A DNA stretch of 64,000 nucleotides, taken from contig JAYWMQ010000006.1 in NCBI GenBank assembly GCA_035873375.1, positions 1 through 64,000 of the forward strand, in the 5' to 3' direction. Source of the DNA: Nitrospirota bacterium. Lineage in GTDB: Bacteria; Nitrospirota; Thermodesulfovibrionia; Thermodesulfovibrionales; JdFR-85. Positions 3,822-44,724 of the stretch are shown one piece after another; the first letter of the stretch is position 1; every line of letters starts with the position of its first letter. The translations under genes and the position numbers were made by a program. The notes below the pieces were generated by a model. It ran no database searches, had not been told where the DNA came from, and was given only the letters and a program-made list of their open reading frames with translations.

Positions 3822-5276
3822 TTAAAACTCCACCCTTTTTCTCCTGGAATTTGGCGGAATCCTGAGTTCTTCCCTGTATTTTGCTACGGTCCTTCTGGCT
3901 ATGGTTATGTTCTGTTGATTCAGAAAATCAGCTATCTTCTGGTCGCTGAAGGGTTTTTGGGGATTCTCTTCAGAGATTATCTTCTTTATCTGTTCCTTTA
4001 CCAGGGTGGACGAGATATCCTCGTTGTTACCCTGAAGTGAGCTGCTGAAGAAGAATCTGAAACTGAAAATTCCGTGGGGACAGGCCAGATATTTGCTGGA
4101 TGTAACCCTACTGACGGTGCTTTCGTGCATGCTGATATCTGTGGCTACATCCCTTAAATTGAGCGGTTTGATATAGCGTGGACCATAATCAAAGAACTTC
4201 TCCTGGAAGTGGAGGATGCTCTTTGTCACCTTGTAGATGGTCTTGTTCCTCTGGTCAAGACTCTTTATAAGCCATAGGGCGGAACGGAGTTTTTCCTCGA
4301 GGAACTGCTTTTCCTCCTTTGTCAGGGAAGCCTTGTTCATCAGGAGCTTTCTGTATTGATTGTTCAGCCTGATTCTCGGAAGTCCCTCATCGTTGAGGAT
4401 AATCTGGTATTCACCGTCTGTCTTCTCAATATATACATCCGGGATTACATAGTTTGTCTCATGGGACGAAAAATTTCTTGCGGGTTTCGGGTCGAGTTCT
4501 TCAATGATTTTTACAGCTATCATTATGTCTTCATAGGTTGCACCATACTGCTTTGCAATAGCTTTATACTTCTTTTTCTCAAGCTCCACAAGGTTGTTCT
4601 GCACTATCTTCTCAACCAGGGTGCCGGCAAGGCCAAGCATCTTTATCTGGATCAGCAGGCATTCCCTGAGATTTCTTGCGCCTATCCCCGGCGGGTCCAG
4701 TTCCTGAACAAGTCCAATTGCCTCTCTCACCTGCTCTACCGGGACTTTGCAGACTTCTGCCAGATCTTCATCCGACATTCTCAGGTACCCGTTGTCATCA
4801 ATATTGCCGATAATTGCCTCTGCGATAATCTGAAGCAATTCATCACTTGTATTAAGGCGGAGTTGCCAGTTGAGATGTTCGTAGAGGTTTGGGGAAGAAG
4901 ATACAAACTGTTCAAATGATGTCGGAGTATCCGTTCCAGGTGTAAAATATCCGAGGTCTCTTCCGTCACTGCTTCTTTCATCAAAATAATCATCTGCCCT
5001 GAAGGTCATGAGGTTTTCAAGGGGCGACAGCACGTCTTCTTCAGGTGTTGATTCCGGGAGTTCAGCCTCCTCGTTTTTTTGTTCTTCCTGTGTCTGTTCT
5101 TCCTGTATTTGCTCTTCCTGGAGCTCCTCAAGGAACGGGTTTTCGGTGAGTTCCTGATTCAGGGCCTGCGTTAGTTCCAGCTGTGGCAGTTGCAGGAGTT
5201 TGATGGCCTGCTGAAGCTGAGGTGTCAGGACGAGTTTTTGCGATAATTTTATTTCAAGTCTGGTTTCAAGTGCCAT
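3822..5276 (-). CDS. rpoN: RNA polymerase sigma-54 factor
   Basis: This 484-residue protein shows all three sigma-54 regions. Region I is glutamine-rich (LSQKLVLTPQLQQAIKLLQL) and contacts activators. An acidic, Gln/Glu-rich region II occupies about residues 50-85. The core-binding and DNA-binding regions follow, ending with the RpoN box ARRTVAKYRE near residue 460, which reads the -24 element. Its start overlaps the lptB stop by one base. A clear -24/-12 promoter occurs in this same window at 37060-37075 in front of a PEP-CTERM gene, giving a plausible target of this factor. Confidence 0.97.
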   Translation of the reverse strand: MALETRLEIKLSQKLVLTPQLQQAIKLLQLPQLELTQALNQELTENPFLEELQEEQIQEEQTQEEQKNEEAELPESTPEEDVLSPLENLMTFRADDYFDERSSDGRDLGYFTPGTDTPTSFEQFVSSSPNLYEHLNWQLRLNTSDELLQIIAEAIIGNIDDNGYLRMSDEDLAEVCKVPVEQVREAIGLVQELDPPGIGARNLRECLLIQIKMLGLAGTLVEKIVQNNLVELEKKKYKAIAKQYGATYEDIMIAVKIIEELDPKPARNFSSHETNYVIPDVYIEKTDGEYQIILNDEGLPRIRLNNQYRKLLMNKASLTKEEKQFLEEKLRSALWLIKSLDQRNKTIYKVTKSILHFQEKFFDYGPRYIKPLNLRDVATDISMHESTVSRVTSSKYLACPHGIFSFRFFFSSSLQGNNEDISSTLVKEQIKKIISEENPQKPFSDQKIADFLNQQNITIARRTVAKYREELRIPPNSRRKRVEF

Positions 5277-32949: not shown

Positions 32950-34266
32950 TTAATACCTGTAATAGTCCGGCTTGAACGGCCCTTCCCTGGGAATACCGAG
33001 ATACTCGGACTGGGCATCGGTAAGCGTGGTCAGCTTTACACCCAACTTTCCCAGATGCAACTGGGCAACCTTTTCATCCAGATGTTTTGGGAGCACATAA
33101 ACCTTGTTTTCGTAATTGTCAGGATTGTTCCAGAGCTCCATCTGGGCCATAACCTGGTTCGTAAAACTGTTTGACATGACAAAAGAAGGATGACCTGTGG
33201 CACATCCGAGGTTTACAAGGCGCCCTTCGGCAAGTATTGTTACGGCCTTGCCCTCAGGCCAGATCACCTGGTCAACCTGCGGCTTTATATTTACCTTCTT
33301 AAGCGATGGGTCGTTAAAGACCGAGGCAACATCTATTTCTATATCAAAATGCCCTATGTTACAGACTATGGCCTGATCCTTCATCACATCCATATGCTGT
33401 CTGCAGATAACGTCCTTGCACCCCGTAGTGGTAATGAATATATCCGCAATGGGTGCGGCATCCTCCATGGTAACAACCTCATAACCCTCCATGGCGGCCT
33501 GAAGAGCGCATATCGGGTCTATTTCTGTAATAAGAACCCTGGCACCCTGACCCCTTAAAGACTGGGCGCATCCCTTGCCGACATCACCATAGCCGGCTAC
33601 AACCGCTATCTTGCCGGCTATCATTACATCAGTGGCCCTCTTTATCCCGTCCAGCAGGGACTCACGGCAGCCGTATAGATTGTCAAACTTCGATTTTGTG
33701 ACGGAATCATTTACATTAAAGGCAGGACAGCCAAGGGTGCCTTCACGCATCATTTCATAAAGACGATGAACTCCTGTGGTCGTCTCCTCGGAAATACCGC
33801 GGATTTCCTTCAGATACTCAGGGTAGCGGTCATGAACAATCTGGGTAAGATCCCCGCCGTCATCAAGAATCATGTTAAGTGGTTTTCCGTCAGGCCATAA
33901 GAGCGTCTGCTCTATACACCAGTCATATTCTTCCTCGCTTTCTCCCTTCCATGCAAATACCGGAATACCACGGGCTGCTATGGCTGCCGCAGCATGATCC
34001 TGTGTGGAAAATATATTGCATGATGACCAGCGGACCTCAGCCCCTAATTCAACCAGGGTCTCTATCAATACAGCAGTCTGTATCGTCATATGGAGACACC
34101 CTGCTACCCGGGCTCCACTAAGTGGTTTTTCCTGTCCGAATTCCTGACGAAGCGCCATCAACCCTGGCATTTCGGTTTCAGCAATGGATATCTCCTTTCT
34201 TCCCCATTCGGCAAGGGAAATATCCGCTACCTTGAAATCCTCAACAACAATTTTGTCCTCAATCAT
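32950..34266 (-). CDS. ahcY: adenosylhomocysteinase
   Basis: The 438-residue enzyme has the N-terminal substrate residues ([20 protein letters not shown]), [13 protein letters not shown], the catalytic [13 protein letters not shown], the NAD-binding [15 protein letters not shown] and the C-terminal ending KPDYYRY. It splits S-adenosylhomocysteine into adenosine and homocysteine, closing the SAM cycle. A good AGGAGG ribosome binding site is present (34276-34281). The leader contains a 7-bp hairpin, GGGCTCT / AGAGCCC, but no SAH riboswitch pattern was recognised. Confidence 0.97.
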
Positions 34267-34926
34267 TAGCTTTAAAACCTCCTGAATTTTAAAAGTATTG
34301 TAACTGCCTATTCCGGCGGGTTGGGCTCTTGGAGAGCCCGTTTCTGTATTACCGGTTCATAGTATTATCATGTTTTCAGCCAACAATTGCAAGTAAATGC
34401 AAGTAAACGAGTAAGGATTTGATGCCATAAAGCTCTTCCTTTCATGTTCCATTCCTCCTGATAAGGCCGGGAAGGTCAAAAGTTTTCCCCTCTATCAAGA
34501 GGGGATTAACAGGGTGTGTTCCTTAACTTGATTCGGGATTCAGAATAAGTCCACCTCTTTGGAAGAGGGGAGGGGGATTTTTCAAAAATGCGAAATTCCG
34601 CGAGTAAGCAACTATTGATTTTAAATGACTTTTATCTTGTGAAATCTTTCAGATATGCTATACTTTAACAAATAAACGGAGGAACCGGAAATTCGTGTAA
34701 TTAGAGTCTGTGTATAAATATAAGAATTGAGCCGTCATTCCCGCGGTCTGTTGAGCGGGAATCCAGTCTTTTCAGTGAGTTCTGGATATCCGATTACAGA
34801 CACTTCAGGTATGACAAAAATTAAAAACAGCAGTTTATACACAGACACTAATTAATGATATCTGTATAAAATAATACAAGATGCAGAAATTTGCTATGAT
34901 ATGAAAAAAAGCTGGAGGCATTAGTG
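34267..34926. other. 660-base intergenic stretch with several inverted repeats
   Basis: No gene is seen. It holds the ahcY leader hairpin (GGGCTCT/AGAGCCC near 34324-34340), a C/G-mirrored segment (CCTCTATCAAGAGGGG near 34490 and CTCTTTGGAAGAGGGG near 34550) and the terminal-repeat element described next. A TATACT-like -10 at about 34657 with TTGTGA upstream may start a plus-strand transcript. Confidence 0.55.
34698..34854. mobile_element. MITE-like element with 21-bp terminal inverted repeats
   Basis: The 157-bp element is bounded by TAATTAGAGTCTGTGTATAAA (34698-34718) and TTTATACACAGACACTAATTA (34834-34854), which are reverse complements with one mismatch. The interior carries a REP-like palindrome, CATTCCCGC ... 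GCGGGAATC (about 34736-34763), the same hairpin design seen in the 307-627 array. It has no coding capacity, so it would need a transposase in trans. No clear target duplication beyond the symmetric TA ends is visible. A related end sits at 658-678. Confidence 0.75.
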
Positions 34927-35151
34927 ATGTCATACAAAGTAAGCATAATAATTGAAAAAGATGAATATGGGTATTACGCCTATGCACCGGAACTGGAAGG
35001 ATGTCAGACTCAGGGTGAGACAATAGACGAAGTAATGGTAAACATAAAAGAGGCAATTGAACTTTATTTGGAGACACTTACGGAAGAGGAAATTAGGGAA
35101 GCGATGAGCAAGGAAATCCTAACAACAACTTTAGAGGTTCAGGTTGCCTAA
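34927..35151 (+). CDS. hicB: HicB-family antitoxin (first pair)
   Basis: The 74-residue protein starts MSYKVSIIIEKDEYGYYAYAP, with the HicB fold continuing ELEGCQTQGETIDEVMVNIKEAIELYLE. It has only the partial RNase H-like HicB domain and no extra DNA-binding domain. The ATG at 34927 is 8 bases from GGAGG. The downstream HicA start lies in the end of this gene, so the pair is translationally coupled. It probably neutralises the HicA mRNA interferase. Confidence 0.87.
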   Translation: MSYKVSIIIEKDEYGYYAYAPELEGCQTQGETIDEVMVNIKEAIELYLETLTEEEIREAMSKEILTTTLEVQVA

Positions 35152-35347
35152 ACTTCCACGACTTACACCTCAGGAAGCAGAATCAATGCTCCTGAAGGAT
35201 GGATATGAATTTATCAGAAGCAAAGGTAGTCACAGGATTTACATCAAGGGGACAAGACGAATGATAATTCCATTTCACACCGGCAAAATCTTACATCCCA
35301 AAATTGTCAAACAAGTTATCAAAGCAATAGAAACGAAAGAATATTAA
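35144..35347 (+). CDS. hicA: HicA-family toxin (first pair)
   Basis: The 67-residue protein begins with TTG inside the hicB stop region and reads MPKLPRLTPQEAESMLLKDG. The dsRBD-like HicA fold carries the catalytic His in SKGSHRIYIK and a second conserved segment IPFHTGKILHPKIVKQVIK. HicA toxins cleave mRNA in the absence of HicB. Size and order (antitoxin first) are the usual reversed hicBA arrangement. Confidence 0.87.
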   Translation: MPKLPRLTPQEAESMLLKDGYEFIRSKGSHRIYIKGTRRMIIPFHTGKILHPKIVKQVIKAIETKEY

Positions 35348-36079: not shown

Positions 36080-36295
36080 ATGCACAATGAATTTACTGCA
36101 ATAATTGAAAAAGATGGAGATTGGTACATTGCATATTGTCCTGAAATACCAGGAGCCAATGGTCAGGGCAAGACAAAAGAAGAATGTCTTAAGAGCTTGT
36201 CAGAAGCCATTAAATTGATTTTAGAGGATAGAAGGCAGAATGGTATGCGAGGAATTCCACAGGATGCAATATCTGAAGTTGTAGCAGTTGAATGA
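36080..36295 (+). CDS. hicB: HicB-family antitoxin (second pair)
   Basis: The 71-residue protein reads MHNEFTAIIEKDGDWYIAYC, then PEIPGANGQGKTKEECLKSLSEAIKLILEDR. This is a partial RNase H-like HicB domain from a different subgroup than the first pair (about a third identical by eye). GGAGG lies 8 bases upstream. The stop overlaps the hicA start by 4 bases. Confidence 0.87.
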   Translation: MHNEFTAIIEKDGDWYIAYCPEIPGANGQGKTKEECLKSLSEAIKLILEDRRQNGMRGIPQDAISEVVAVE

Positions 36296-36480
36296 AAAGA
36301 AGCGAGCTATTACGACATCTTCGCAAACACGGCTGTTACCTCAAACGAGAGGGTTCATCTCACTCTCTATGGTGTAATCCTTTAACAGGTCATGTCGAAA
36401 CCATACCTCGCCATACGGAGATTTCTAATAAGTTAGCTCGGAAAATCTGTAAGGCATTATCAATAAAAGAGATTGGATAA
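36292..36480 (+). CDS. hicA: HicA-family toxin (second pair)
   Basis: The 62-residue protein reads MKRSELLRHLRKHGCYLKRE, with the catalytic His in EGSSHSLWCNPLTG and the C-terminal IPRHTEISNKLARKICKAL. It belongs to the HicA mRNA interferase family. The ATGA overlap with hicB gives coupling. Two different hicBA pairs within 1.6 kb suggest repeated acquisition rather than duplication. Confidence 0.88.
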   Translation: MKRSELLRHLRKHGCYLKREGSSHSLWCNPLTGHVETIPRHTEISNKLARKICKALSIKEIG

Positions 36481-37204
36481 TCGGGTAGCTGGATTTTTTC
36501 TCTTCTGGTCCCCACTGTACCCCTGCAATATCAACCACTTAATTCAGTTAAAAACTCTGTGTGCCGGTTTTTAATCATGGCTCCGGATTCAACAAACTCA
36601 TGAGCGAGAGAGCTTAAGCACAAGAACAGGGGCAAAAGCACCTTTTAGGCACTTGTATTTGCAAGCCTTCAGCTGTTGGTGCGGATACACGCGTAGCATA
36701 TGTGAGGAGGCCTATAGACCGTCCTTATTTATTTGGAAATATTGAAAAATGCCCGGTCAGGGCAATTCAGATTACAGATTCCACATGCCATACTTTAAGT
36801 GTCGGAATTCTTTACTTTAAAAAAACTTCTTACACAATAGGAAGCGATTCCTGTCTATTGAAAGGGTTTGATTAAATTTCCTTTAAAATTAATTGGTTAT
36901 GCCCATTAGATCGCTCTAATCCTTCTTGTGTTTACCATTACTTGGCAGGAATACTGTCGGACTTTCTTGCACTAAAAGCAAACAATCATATCTCGGCAAA
37001 AGGCCACAATACTGTTATTTCCCTTTGAATTCAATAGGTTACAGGGATACTGCCAAGGCTGGCACATCTCTTGCACTAAACTATAATTAAATAATAAAAT
37101 TATGGTAATTCAATTGCTTTAAATTGAAAAAAATAAATAAGGAGGCTAAAATGTTAGGAAATCTCTTTGTAAGAGAAAATTTAGAAAGAAAGGAGGAGGA
37201 GAAA
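36481..37204. other. long leader region upstream of PEP-CTERM gene
   Basis: No gene is seen in the first 640 bases. The stretch contains a dyad near 36837-36859 (ATAGGAAGCGATTCCTGTCTAT), a degenerate promoter-like duplicate near 36944-36976, the sigma-54 promoter at 37060-37075 and, from 37124 on, an in-frame extension of the PEP-CTERM frame. A start at 37151 (ATG, with AAGGAGG before it) is also possible. Confidence 0.6.
37060..37075 (+). promoter_or_regulatory. sigma-54 (-24/-12) promoter
   Basis: TGGCAC (37060-37065), five bases (atctc), TTGCA (37071-37075). The GG and GC pairs are separated by exactly ten bases, the canonical spacing. Transcription should start about 12 bases downstream (near 37086), about 120 bases before the ATG. 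PEP-CTERM genes are often controlled by sigma-54 with a PrsR-type activator. Confidence 0.85.
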
Positions 37205-37831
37205 ATGAAAATAGTGAAACCGATGTTAACGTTTGTGTTTGCATTAGTAGTAAGTCTTGTAATGGTTGGTAACGCAACCGCTTTCTTCATTGATTTTGAA
37301 GATGGAGTCAACGGAGCGCCTGTAACCGACATTCCCGGCATCAGTTTTTTAGATTACAATGGGTATGCCTCTCTCTATTTAGATTGCTCTACCGGTAGCT
37401 ATAACTGTTCAGATATGAACGGCAGTTATAGTTATGGCGGTTACTACATTTATGATAATGTTGGCTTATGGGCTGGCCCAAATGCTGATGCACAGGGCGT
37501 AATAGTCGATTTTACGTCGAATGATGGAACCTGGTTTTCAACCGGCTATAGCGCTAATAGTAACTTCTATGTGGTGGCATACTTAACCGATGGGAGCACT
37601 GTAACTGCTTCTGGTGGAAAAAATTACGGAGTTGGAATGGACTTTCTGAGCGTTGCCGCTTCTGCGGGCACCTATATCGATTATGTAGTCCTGCATGATA
37701 CCGGTAACTACTGGGTTGTTGATAACATGAGTGGCGATGCATCCGGAGTTAATGTGCCCGAACCAGGCACTTTGCTCCTCATAGGCTCAGGCCTGATCGG
37801 ACTTGCGTTTGCTAGAAGAAAGATGATATAA
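37205..37831 (+). CDS. PEP-CTERM sorting-domain protein
   Basis: The 208-residue protein has a signal peptide (MKIVKPMLTFVFALVVSLVM, cleavage near NATA), a Gly/Tyr/Asp/Ser-rich secreted region (GSYSYGGYYIYDNVG), and the PEP-CTERM sorting tag: VPEPGT, a membrane helix LLLIGSGLIGLAFA and a basic end RRK. An exosortase cleaves this tag. No exosortase is in the window. The ATG at 37205 follows AGGAGGAGG and opens a good signal peptide; the longer in-frame start at 37151 would add an 18-residue charged leader. Secreted matrix protein is the likely role. Confidence 0.92.
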   Translation: MKIVKPMLTFVFALVVSLVMVGNATAFFIDFEDGVNGAPVTDIPGISFLDYNGYASLYLDCSTGSYNCSDMNGSYSYGGYYIYDNVGLWAGPNADAQGVIVDFTSNDGTWFSTGYSANSNFYVVAYLTDGSTVTASGGKNYGVGMDFLSVAASAGTYIDYVVLHDTGNYWVVDNMSGDASGVNVPEPGTLLLIGSGLIGLAFARRKMI

Positions 37832-38230
37832 GAGTCAAATATGTAATGCCTCAAAATGCCCATTCGGATGTGTTCGGATGGGCATTTTTTTATGGGCCAT
37901 TAAATTTTAGATCTTACGAGTGATAGAGTACTACTTAAGTTGTTGCAACGTCTACTATCGCACGTGCAATTGCACAAGGCGAGGCATTAAATTCCGAGAA
38001 AATTTGAAAACATTGAAAGCTATTTATGGATCACTTTGTTATCCAGGACACAAACCGAAAACTTTTGACATTTTAAATGTATGAAAAAAATCTGGAACAT
38101 GCTATAGCGGAAAATGTTAACATATAAAGTACGTCTTAAAGAGTTACCGGAGAGGAATACGGTAAAAAGCCGCTGTTCCCCATAGTTCAGGTGCAAGTTT
38201 AAGAAAAAAAATCTTTAAAGGAGTTTCAAT
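37832..38230. other. 399-base gap before the SET gene
   Basis: The first 60 bases hold the terminator above. The rest is AT-rich with two palindromes (GTTGCAAC near 37941 and GTGCAATTGCAC at 37964-37975), possibly operator sites. The SET-gene ribosome binding site AAAGGAG is at 38217-38223. No gene is seen. Confidence 0.5.
37853..37891 (+). terminator. rho-independent terminator of the PEP-CTERM gene
   Basis: AAATGCCCAT (37854-37863) pairs with ATGGGCATTT (about 37878-37887), then a T-run to 37891. It lies 22 bases after the stop codon. Confidence 0.85.
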
Positions 38231-38707
38231 ATGGACGATGGATTTGAATTAAGAGTATCTGATAGAAAAGGGGAAGGCATTTTTGCGACGAGATCATTTA
38301 AGGCCGGTGAAACCGTGATGATCGGAGTAATTGAAAAAAGACTGAAGGAGAATCACTCTCATGCCTCACAGATTGGTGAGGATGAATATGTCTTTCATGC
38401 TGGATCAATAAGCAAGGTCAATCATTCGTGCGACCCTAATTGTGGTATCAAAATCAATGAAACCGGTGCCCATGATTTTGCAGCCATAAGGGAAATTATT
38501 GCTGATGAGGAGATAACCTTTGATTATGCCATGAGAAATTATGGAGTTGATTATTTCCCGAAAGAGTGCATGTGCGGCTCTGAAATATGTCGTGGCAGAG
38601 TTACCGGCTGGAAGGATTTGCCGGAGGCGAGGAAGAAAAGATACGAAGGCTTTGTTGCTCCTTACCTTCTTGAAATGGATGCCAGGTATTGTGCGGAGCA
38701 AACATAG
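38231..38707 (+). CDS. SET-domain protein-lysine methyltransferase-like protein
   Basis: The 158-residue protein shows the SET fold. The N-terminal part is RVSDRKGEGIFATRSFKAGE, the SAM-pocket motif is VNHSCDPNCG (NHS plus two Cys), and the catalytic Tyr lies in EEITFDYAM. A post-SET-like cluster CMCGSEICRG gives CxCx4C. Together with the Cys in the NHSCDPNC motif it can bind zinc, as in eukaryotic lysine methyltransferases. Bacterial SET proteins are known but uncommon; the substrate is unknown. It is a single-gene unit between the PEP-CTERM gene and coaE. Confidence 0.86.
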   Translation: MDDGFELRVSDRKGEGIFATRSFKAGETVMIGVIEKRLKENHSHASQIGEDEYVFHAGSISKVNHSCDPNCGIKINETGAHDFAAIREIIADEEITFDYAMRNYGVDYFPKECMCGSEICRGRVTGWKDLPEARKKRYEGFVAPYLLEMDARYCAEQT

Positions 38708-42639: not shown

Positions 42640-44724
42640 ATGAAACCTTTAGTCAGCATCCTATACCTCATTGCATCCATCACCGTCCTCTCTCACGGTG
42701 TCATGGTCTATCTGAACAACCGAAAGTCAAGGATAAACATGAGCCTTTTCCTGTTTTGTCTGGCATCATTCTTCTGGCTCTTTTTTGCTTTTGTAGCAAC
42801 TTTTTCAGATAGTTATGATACGTCCCTCCTTTTTTTCAGGATATGCTATGTTGGCATAGTCTTTATCCCTTCAACCTTCTACCATTTTGCACATGAATTC
42901 GTGGGCAGAACCTCACGAAAGAGAATAGCTGCCAGGTATCTCGTATCTACCCTGTTTGCCTTAATAGTCTTAGGTACAAACCACATGATAAAAGGTCTTT
43001 TCTTATACCCCTGGGGATTTTACCCTGCAGCGTCAAGCCCCTTTCACATTATCTTCATGCTCTTTTTTCTGATTACTCTGTTCTCTGCCCTGAACCTGAT
43101 ATATAAGGAGATGAAGAAAAGGAATGTACCGTCTATACAGCGGACCAAGCTAAAATACATCTTTGCAGGATTGCTGGTTGCAGCCCTTGCATCCGTTGAC
43201 TTTCTTGGTAACTACGGTATACCGGTGATGCCACTCGGTTTTATCTTCATGTCACTTTTTACGTTTATCCTCACATATGCAACCCTGAGACATCAGCTCC
43301 TCGATATCAGAGTGGCCTTTGCAAGGTTATTCCTTCTCTTTATAACCGCCGTTGTTGTCACCGGCACACCTTTTCTTTTAGGTATAAAGCTCCTTGGCCC
43401 TGGATTATGGATAATTCCCGTATCCGTTGCCCTTATACTCGCTGCCACTGCTCCACTCCTGTATATTTATATAGGAGAACGTACAGAAAATTTGCTGTTG
43501 AAGCAGCAGAGACGCTACCAGCAGACCCTTCTGTATGCATCCCATGGCATGTTATACAAGAGAGACCTGAACAGGCTGCTCAAATTTGTAGTAATATTAT
43601 TAACTCTCGTTGCACGGCTGAGATATGCCGCAATATATCTGTTCGATGAAGAGTCAAACCATTTTGAACTGAAGGCAGAGAGGCCTCGGCTGCCGGAAAG
43701 GCCTCTGACACTCGATATGCAAAACCCGATTGTCAGGAAAATATCAAAAAAAGAGATACTGAACAGGGATGAACTCCTCAGCAGGGGGGAAGGCCGTGGG
43801 GTGGTTGACGAGATGCAAAGGCTTAATGCCGCTATCATCATACCATGCTGCACCCGGCGGGGCATTGTTGGATTTCTTGCTTTTGGAAACAAGAGGTCCG
43901 GCCAGCACTTCTCCTCTGATGAGATCGACACATTTCTTACACTCTCCAACCAGTTTGCCCTTGCAATTGAGAATGCACTGTATCTGAAGGATCTTGAAAA
44001 AGCAGGATCTGAACTCTTCCACGCTGCAAAAATGTCGTCTCTCGGAACTATGGCCTCTGGTTTGGGACATCAGATAAATAACCGACTCCATACAATCCTG
44101 CTTGCAGTAGAGTCGCTCAACATAATGTACTCAGACACCTTTAACAAGAGGGGAAAGGAGCTTGTCGGTTCCATAGTCAATAATATAAGACAGGCGGAGG
44201 ATACGATTGAAAAACTTAGAAACTACTCAAGAACCTCCTCTGAAGAGATGTCTCCGGTATTGTTAAAGGATGTAATTGAAAGTAGCTTTGAGATGATGAG
44301 ACTGAAAAAATCCTCTTTCAGCCAAATAAGGCTTGAGGTCGATGTCGAGAGTTCTTTAAAAGTAGTGGGCAACCTGTCACAGTTGAGAGAGGTTTTCCTT
44401 AATCTCCTTGAGAACGCCGACAACGCCATAAGGCAATCCCTTGCAAAAGGCAATGATAAGGAACCAACGATTGGAATACGGGCAAGGGCATTGGAAAGGG
44501 GAATGGTCAAGGTTGTGATTGAGGACAACGGCATAGGGATCAGAAAGGATGATTTTGACAAACTGTTTGTTCCGTTTTATACAACCAAGGCATCATCATC
44601 CCAGGGTACAGGCCTTGGTCTTTATATAGCGGATAAGATAATAGAGCTGCATGGCGGTACAATAAGGGTTGAATCAGTAAATGGCAGGGAAACAAAATTT
44701 ATCATAAGGCTCAAAAGGGCATAA
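42640..44724 (+). CDS. sensor histidine kinase with 7TM input and GAF domains
   Basis: The 694-residue protein has about eight hydrophobic segments in residues 1-290, matching the HisKA_7TM input domain (YHFAHEFVGRTSR is a typical loop). A GAF domain follows (about residues 300-450). The kinase has an H-box with HQINNRLHTILLAVES, N-box FLNLLENADNAI, G1 EDNGIGI, F-box FVPFYTTK and G2 GTGLGLYIA. The phospho-acceptor is the His in the HQINN motif. There is no response regulator next to it; the regulator at 26.7 kb is not an obvious partner. It starts divergently from the flavoprotein. Confidence 0.9.
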   Translation: MKPLVSILYLIASITVLSHGVMVYLNNRKSRINMSLFLFCLASFFWLFFAFVATFSDSYDTSLLFFRICYVGIVFIPSTFYHFAHEFVGRTSRKRIAARYLVSTLFALIVLGTNHMIKGLFLYPWGFYPAASSPFHIIFMLFFLITLFSALNLIYKEMKKRNVPSIQRTKLKYIFAGLLVAALASVDFLGNYGIPVMPLGFIFMSLFTFILTYATLRHQLLDIRVAFARLFLLFITAVVVTGTPFLLGIKLLGPGLWIIPVSVALILAATAPLLYIYIGERTENLLLKQQRRYQQTLLYASHGMLYKRDLNRLLKFVVILLTLVARLRYAAIYLFDEESNHFELKAERPRLPERPLTLDMQNPIVRKISKKEILNRDELLSRGEGRGVVDEMQRLNAAIIIPCCTRRGIVGFLAFGNKRSGQHFSSDEIDTFLTLSNQFALAIENALYLKDLEKAGSELFHAAKMSSLGTMASGLGHQINNRLHTILLAVESLNIMYSDTFNKRGKELVGSIVNNIRQAEDTIEKLRNYSRTSSEEMSPVLLKDVIESSFEMMRLKKSSFSQIRLEVDVESSLKVVGNLSQLREVFLNLLENADNAIRQSLAKGNDKEPTIGIRARALERGMVKVVIEDNGIGIRKDDFDKLFVPFYTTKASSSQGTGLGLYIADKIIELHGGTIRVESVNGRETKFIIRLKRA

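Follow-up and report, generated by a model that had tools for sequence, protein, structure and literature searches.

A candidate PrsR-activated sigma-54 promoter with two PEP-CTERM boxes and an IHF-like site upstream of a PEP-CTERM gene in Nitrospirota

The stretch of DNA analysed here, called the window throughout, is 64 kb long and encodes a PEP-CTERM protein, upstream of which lie a sigma-54 promoter element, two PEP-CTERM boxes and a site resembling the IHF consensus. The gene for sigma-54 itself, rpoN, is found in the same window by profile matches, as an earlier note on this DNA had claimed. The features are listed by position.

3822-5276, minus strand: rpoN (sigma-54), the required sigma factor; matches to PF04963, PF04552 and PF00309 each well beyond the cut-off
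36800-36816, plus strand: PEP-CTERM box 1, TGTCGGAATTCTTTACT, predicted PrsR enhancer site; motif model and conservation
36955-36971, plus strand: PEP-CTERM box 2, TGTCGGACTTTCTTGCA, predicted PrsR enhancer site; motif model and conservation
36972-36983, plus strand: conserved flank of box 2, CTAAAAGCAAAC; identity 12/12 in the paralogue and 11/12 in Bacterium BMS3Bbin07
37029-37041, plus strand: IHF-consensus-like site, ATTCAATAGGTTA, agreeing with 8 of the 9 fixed positions of WATCAANNNNTTR; starts 31 bp upstream of -24
37060-37075, plus strand: sigma-54 -24/-12 promoter, TGGCAC-N5-TTGCA, from pattern match and conservation; start expected near 37086
37151-37204, plus strand: possible in-frame N-terminal extension of 18 residues, with an ATG at 37151 and a Shine-Dalgarno sequence of its own, read from the sequence
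37205-37831, plus strand: PEP-CTERM protein of 208 aa with a signal peptide and a C-terminal PEP-CTERM anchor; PF07589 and TIGR02595 above cut-offs, homologues in L008 and L009
37855-37893, plus strand: inverted repeat with a T-run, resembling an intrinsic terminator, AATGCCCATTCGG...GGATGGGCATTTTTTT, read from the sequence; part of a 138-bp segment sharing 85% identity with the paralogue

The PF07589 match of the gene product scores 34.4 bits against a cut-off of 20.7 and, together with the TIGR02595 match, bears out the earlier identification of a PEP-CTERM gene behind the promoter. Position 37205, given there as an end, is the start of the likely open reading frame 37205-37831. BMS3Bbin07 retains the 18 extra residues, but the paralogue on contig C24 has no ATG at that place. 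A hairpin at 37166-37180, TCTCTT-TGT-AAGAGA, lies between the two Shine-Dalgarno sequences and is kept in L008; at the equivalent place in L006 a differently spelled hairpin, CTTGT-AAGA-ACAAG, is readable, and minimum-energy folds do not favour the hairpin in all three. A search for a riboswitch or other known RNA in the leader gave no Rfam match in 36400-37950. The gene encodes a secreted surface protein of the biofilm type and would form a single-gene operon. Directly downstream, 38231-38707 on the plus strand encodes a small bacterial SET-domain protein (PF00856, 51 bits).

Two other loci serve for comparison. The homologue in Bacterium BMS3Bbin07 (L008), an organism called Nitrospirae (PMC8767757), shares 91% identity over the 159 residues that are available. 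A same-genus genome (G003) apparently carries the same locus, and L008 and L058 therefore probably derive from one genome and were counted once. The paralogous PEP-CTERM locus on contig C24 of G000 (L006/L050) contains a 5' fragment of ahcY that is 84% identical to window 34113-34407, a promoter that is 77% identical to window 36800-37075, and a PEP-CTERM tail with terminator that is 85% identical to window 37754-37891. The middle of the protein differs, which gives the impression of an exported portion swapped while both ends stayed constant, and transposase fragments adjoin the locus. In the window, ahcY is separated from the PEP-CTERM promoter by two hicB-hicA toxin-antitoxin-like pairs (34924-35347 and 36080-36480); at the corresponding place BMS3Bbin07 has a single hicBA-like pair.

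The promoter element, TGGCAC-ATCTC-TTGCA at 37060-37075 on the plus strand, is the sole exact match in the 64-kb window. Its GG (37061-62) and GC (37073-74) are separated by ten bases, and the canonical -24/-12 element described earlier is thereby confirmed from the sequence and by pattern search. Because of this spacing, transcription would start near 37086. The element is kept at 14 of 16 positions in the C24 paralogue (L006) and at 15 of 16 in the BMS3Bbin07 homologue (L008). Exact matches to TGGCAY-N5-TTGCA number three in the 2.67-Mb genome as against one for the reversed control pattern, the genome-wide counts coming from pattern searches only. By eye, one of the other matches (G000:C27:43765-43780, plus strand) precedes a gene that belongs to a series encoding cytochrome-like proteins with CxxCH motifs and predicted export, and another (G000:C48:6387-6402, minus strand) precedes a gene for a TusA-like sulfur carrier.

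A sigma-70 promoter, CTGGCA-17-TATAAT, can also be read at 37059-37087, overlapping the -24/-12 element and agreeing with the consensus at 10 of 12 positions. If it drove the gene, the -24/-12 match would be coincidental. Such a coincidence is highly improbable, because the count of sigma-70-like sites equals the shuffle average and TATAAT is present in neither L006 nor L008, whereas the -24/-12 element is kept in both to the extent given above. With matches at chance level and without conservation, the sigma-70 overlap was rejected.

Enhancer sites upstream of the sigma-54 element were sought with a position model of the PEP-CTERM box trained on the promoters of 14 PEP-CTERM genes in relatives, with the window promoter family left out, and run over the whole 64-kb window on both strands. 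Its two best hits are at 36800 (19.8 bits) and 36955 (18.2 bits), and the third reaches 13.5 bits. In 1000 dinucleotide shuffles of 36481-37059 the score of neither box was attained, and box 2 falls inside the range of the leave-one-out scores of the 14 training boxes (10.8-24.3). Box 1, which the earlier note had missed, is canonical. It starts 260 bp, and box 2 105 bp, before the -24 element, and a spacer of 88 nt (36972-37059) follows box 2. Each of the two boxes is identical at 14 of 17 positions in the C24 paralogue and at 17 of 17 in the BMS3Bbin07 homologue, as compared with 100 of 138 and 102 of 138, respectively, for the stretch between them. The elements and their conservation are directly seen: conservation is higher in the boxes, the IHF-like site and the -24/-12 element than in the stretches that separate them. 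By score and conservation both are PEP-CTERM boxes, the predicted PrsR enhancer site termed "motif 1" by Haft et al., and most likely serve to dock PrsR. In the L009 homologue from Desulfobacteraceae, whose protein is 53% identical, no convincing box was found, the best match being 10 of 16. Elsewhere in the genome, a candidate box at C52:105922 before a RodZ-like gene (14/16 match) was set aside; no sigma-54 element of at least 8/11 lies within 400 bp downstream of it.

The stretch around box 2, 36944-36976, had previously been read as a decayed duplicate of the promoter on account of words shared with it. These words, GG[AG]ATACTG and CTTGCACTAAA, do occur in both stretches. However, GGAATACTG at 36948 and GGGATACTG at 37044 are 96 bp apart and the two copies of CTTGCACTAAA, at 36966 and 37070, are 104 bp apart, so the two pairs are offset from each other by 8 bases and do not form a duplicate. 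Furthermore, conservation does not extend to the resemblance at the promoter, where L008 has CTTGCATAACA and L006 has CCTGCAAGAGC, whereas the upstream copy is conserved in both of these loci. Because its motif score lies in the range of known boxes and is equalled by no shuffle, the upstream stretch is assigned as a box. By this assignment 36955-36971 is neither a promoter nor decayed, and descent from a duplicated sigma-54 promoter is extremely improbable.

Apart from a certain IHF, all the factors that such a promoter would need are directly seen in the genome. Contig C52 encodes PrsR (TIGR02915, 675 bits, cut-off 502.6), PrsK (TIGR02916, 534 bits, cut-off 300) and an exosortase (TIGR02602, 158.5 bits, cut-off 105.55) in a region of about 14 kb. 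The cluster on C52 includes a PEP-CTERM gene with a full-consensus box, followed 80 bp on by TGGTAC-N5-TTGCA. Four PEP-CTERM genes are found in the genome, and a box with a -24/-12 element precedes all three whose upstream DNA is assembled, the fourth being cut by a contig end and outside this count. The earlier note had proposed that the gene probably belongs to a PrsK/PrsR-sigma-54 regulon, and the presence of PrsR and PrsK and of box and -24/-12 in these three genes supports it. A genome devoid of a PrsR-type protein was among the grounds for refutation that the note had named, and PrsR is present. Because rpoN, PrsR, PrsK and exosortase are all present together with a true PEP-CTERM gene, the regulon assignment is well supported. 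Within the window, 5 kb downstream of the PEP-CTERM gene, 42640-44724 (plus strand) encodes a full-length, distant PrsK-like histidine kinase (TIGR02916, 105 bits, cut-off 300).

In this genome, NtrC-type activators with AAA+ domains number about 15. Because about 14 of these are sigma-54 activators with full AAA+ domains other than PrsR, another of them could act here, in which case the sigma-54 promoter would be real and the boxes would belong to a different NtrC-type regulator. This is improbable, since the box is common to the PEP-CTERM genes of relatives and to the PEP-CTERM gene of the prsR cluster, and since the literature ties it to PrsR by phylogenetic profile (PMC1569441). PrsR is the preferred activator.

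The combination of box and sigma-54 element recurs across the phylum. A strict pattern of a box, 57-66 nt and a sigma-54 element gives 32 hits in 396 phylum genomes as against 1 for the reversed control, and at least 12 of the 23 loci examined, a lower bound, lead into a PEP-CTERM open reading frame within 1.5 kb. A looser pattern gives 49 hits as against 14 for the control in 61 relatives, and single loose matches are therefore not trustworthy. The box starts 78-81 bp before -24 in most relatives, compared with 105 and 260 bp for the boxes of the window.

The spacer between box and promoter contains a further conserved element. The IHF-like site of the window is kept at 11 of 13 positions in the C24 paralogue and at 12 of 13 in BMS3Bbin07, and the corresponding block of the window promoter family, ATTCAATNNGTTA, is placed 31 bp upstream of -24. 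Among the 14 spacers used for training, WATCAANNNNTTR is commoner than in shuffles and is found 18-19 bp before the -24 T. Because this position was picked after looking, it was tested on 20 held-out spacers, not all of which are independent, as some share a genome: a match of at least 8/9 occurs in 13 of them (3.7 expected), a perfect 9/9 in 7 (0.26 expected from shuffles) and a match of at least 8/9 exactly at 18-19 bp in 11 (0.1 expected). None of 400 shuffles reaches any of these three counts. On these sequence comparisons, we lean towards the view that PEP-CTERM promoters across Nitrospirota have a third fixed element, a bend site for IHF placed 18-19 bp before -24, and that the window family would be a stretched version of this arrangement, in which the IHF-like site is moved by 12 bp, box 2 is moved by 25 to 37 bp, and another box is added at a distance.

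The conserved site may instead serve HU, a second regulator or an A+T-rich contact of the polymerase. The IhfA-like protein of the genome (C32:40737-41015) scores 116.8 bits, just below the curated cut-off of 120.25, and four other HU/IHF-like proteins are encoded. In classic sigma-54 promoters, IHF sites lie farther from -24 than the element described here. In one Vibrio PEP-CTERM promoter checked, there is no clear equivalent at the 18-19 bp place; Vibrio, Photobacterium and Nitratidesulfovibrio plasmids with PrsR yielded two box/sigma-54 composites only, both from Vibrio and too few to judge. Each of these points except the plasmid survey and the count of HU/IHF-like proteins favours a ligand other than IHF. 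However, a perfect IHF consensus in so many held-out spacers, at a fixed position, makes such a ligand rather unlikely, and IHF is the preferred one. Haft et al. 2006 make no mention of IHF (PMC1569441), and no report linking an IHF-like site to PEP-CTERM promoters was found in the open full-text literature, where the matches appeared incidental by title and abstract.

The window thus very probably holds an enhancer-dependent sigma-54 promoter of a single-gene PEP-CTERM operon, predicted to be activated by PrsR through two boxes and probably bent by IHF. The course of events, from binding through activation to a start at 37086, is inferred as follows. Sigma-54 RNA polymerase would bind 37060-37075 in a closed complex. 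The membrane kinase PrsK would activate PrsR, which in its phosphorylated form would bind box 1 at 36800 and box 2 at 36955. A bend in the DNA that separates box 2 from the promoter, probably introduced by IHF at 37029-37041, would let PrsR touch the polymerase, leading to open-complex formation. Export and processing of the product would then fall to the exosortase whose gene is close to prsR. Enhancer sites, bend site and -24/-12 element stand in the same order in IHF-assisted sigma-54 promoters of the NtrC/NifA type; here, by contrast, PrsR would be the activator and the distance from the IHF-like site to -24 is unusually short.

The arrangement described by Haft et al. 2006, then in Proteobacteria only, consists of motif 1, which is sometimes repeated, a spacer of 32-92 nt and the sigma-54 motif 2, with PrsR and PrsK as a cognate pair (PMC1569441); in the accessible literature, the binding of PrsR to the box is a prediction. 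The window promoter shares with this class the 17-nt motif 1 ending in TTTACA or a variant (here in two copies), a spacer within this range (88 nt from the nearer box), motif 2 with GG-N10-GC (37060-37075), a large intergenic region before a single-gene operon with a PEP-CTERM product, and PrsK, PrsR and exosortase in the genome. Because all sequence features of the class are found, the window promoter is by sequence a member. It differs in having boxes that start 105 and 260 bp rather than about 80 bp upstream, in its IHF-like site and in its host; the Nitrospirota host and the stretched spacings are new to the class. The pepA gene of Aquincola tertiaricarbonis RN12 likewise has a TGGCAC -24 element before a PEP-CTERM gene and a predicted enhancer upstream; its start and RpoN dependence have been measured, whereas the window promoter is known from sequence alone (PMC9850573).

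The RpoN dependence of this one pepA gene is the sole experimental support for PEP-CTERM regulation found in the searchable literature (PMC9850573). The present locus extends the model of PEP-CTERM box and PrsR from Proteobacteria into Nitrospirota. If the IHF-like site is indeed a third element, DNA bending would be part of switching the regulon of exosortase substrates, and the element, if confirmed, would be the missing mechanical part of the PEP-CTERM regulatory system.
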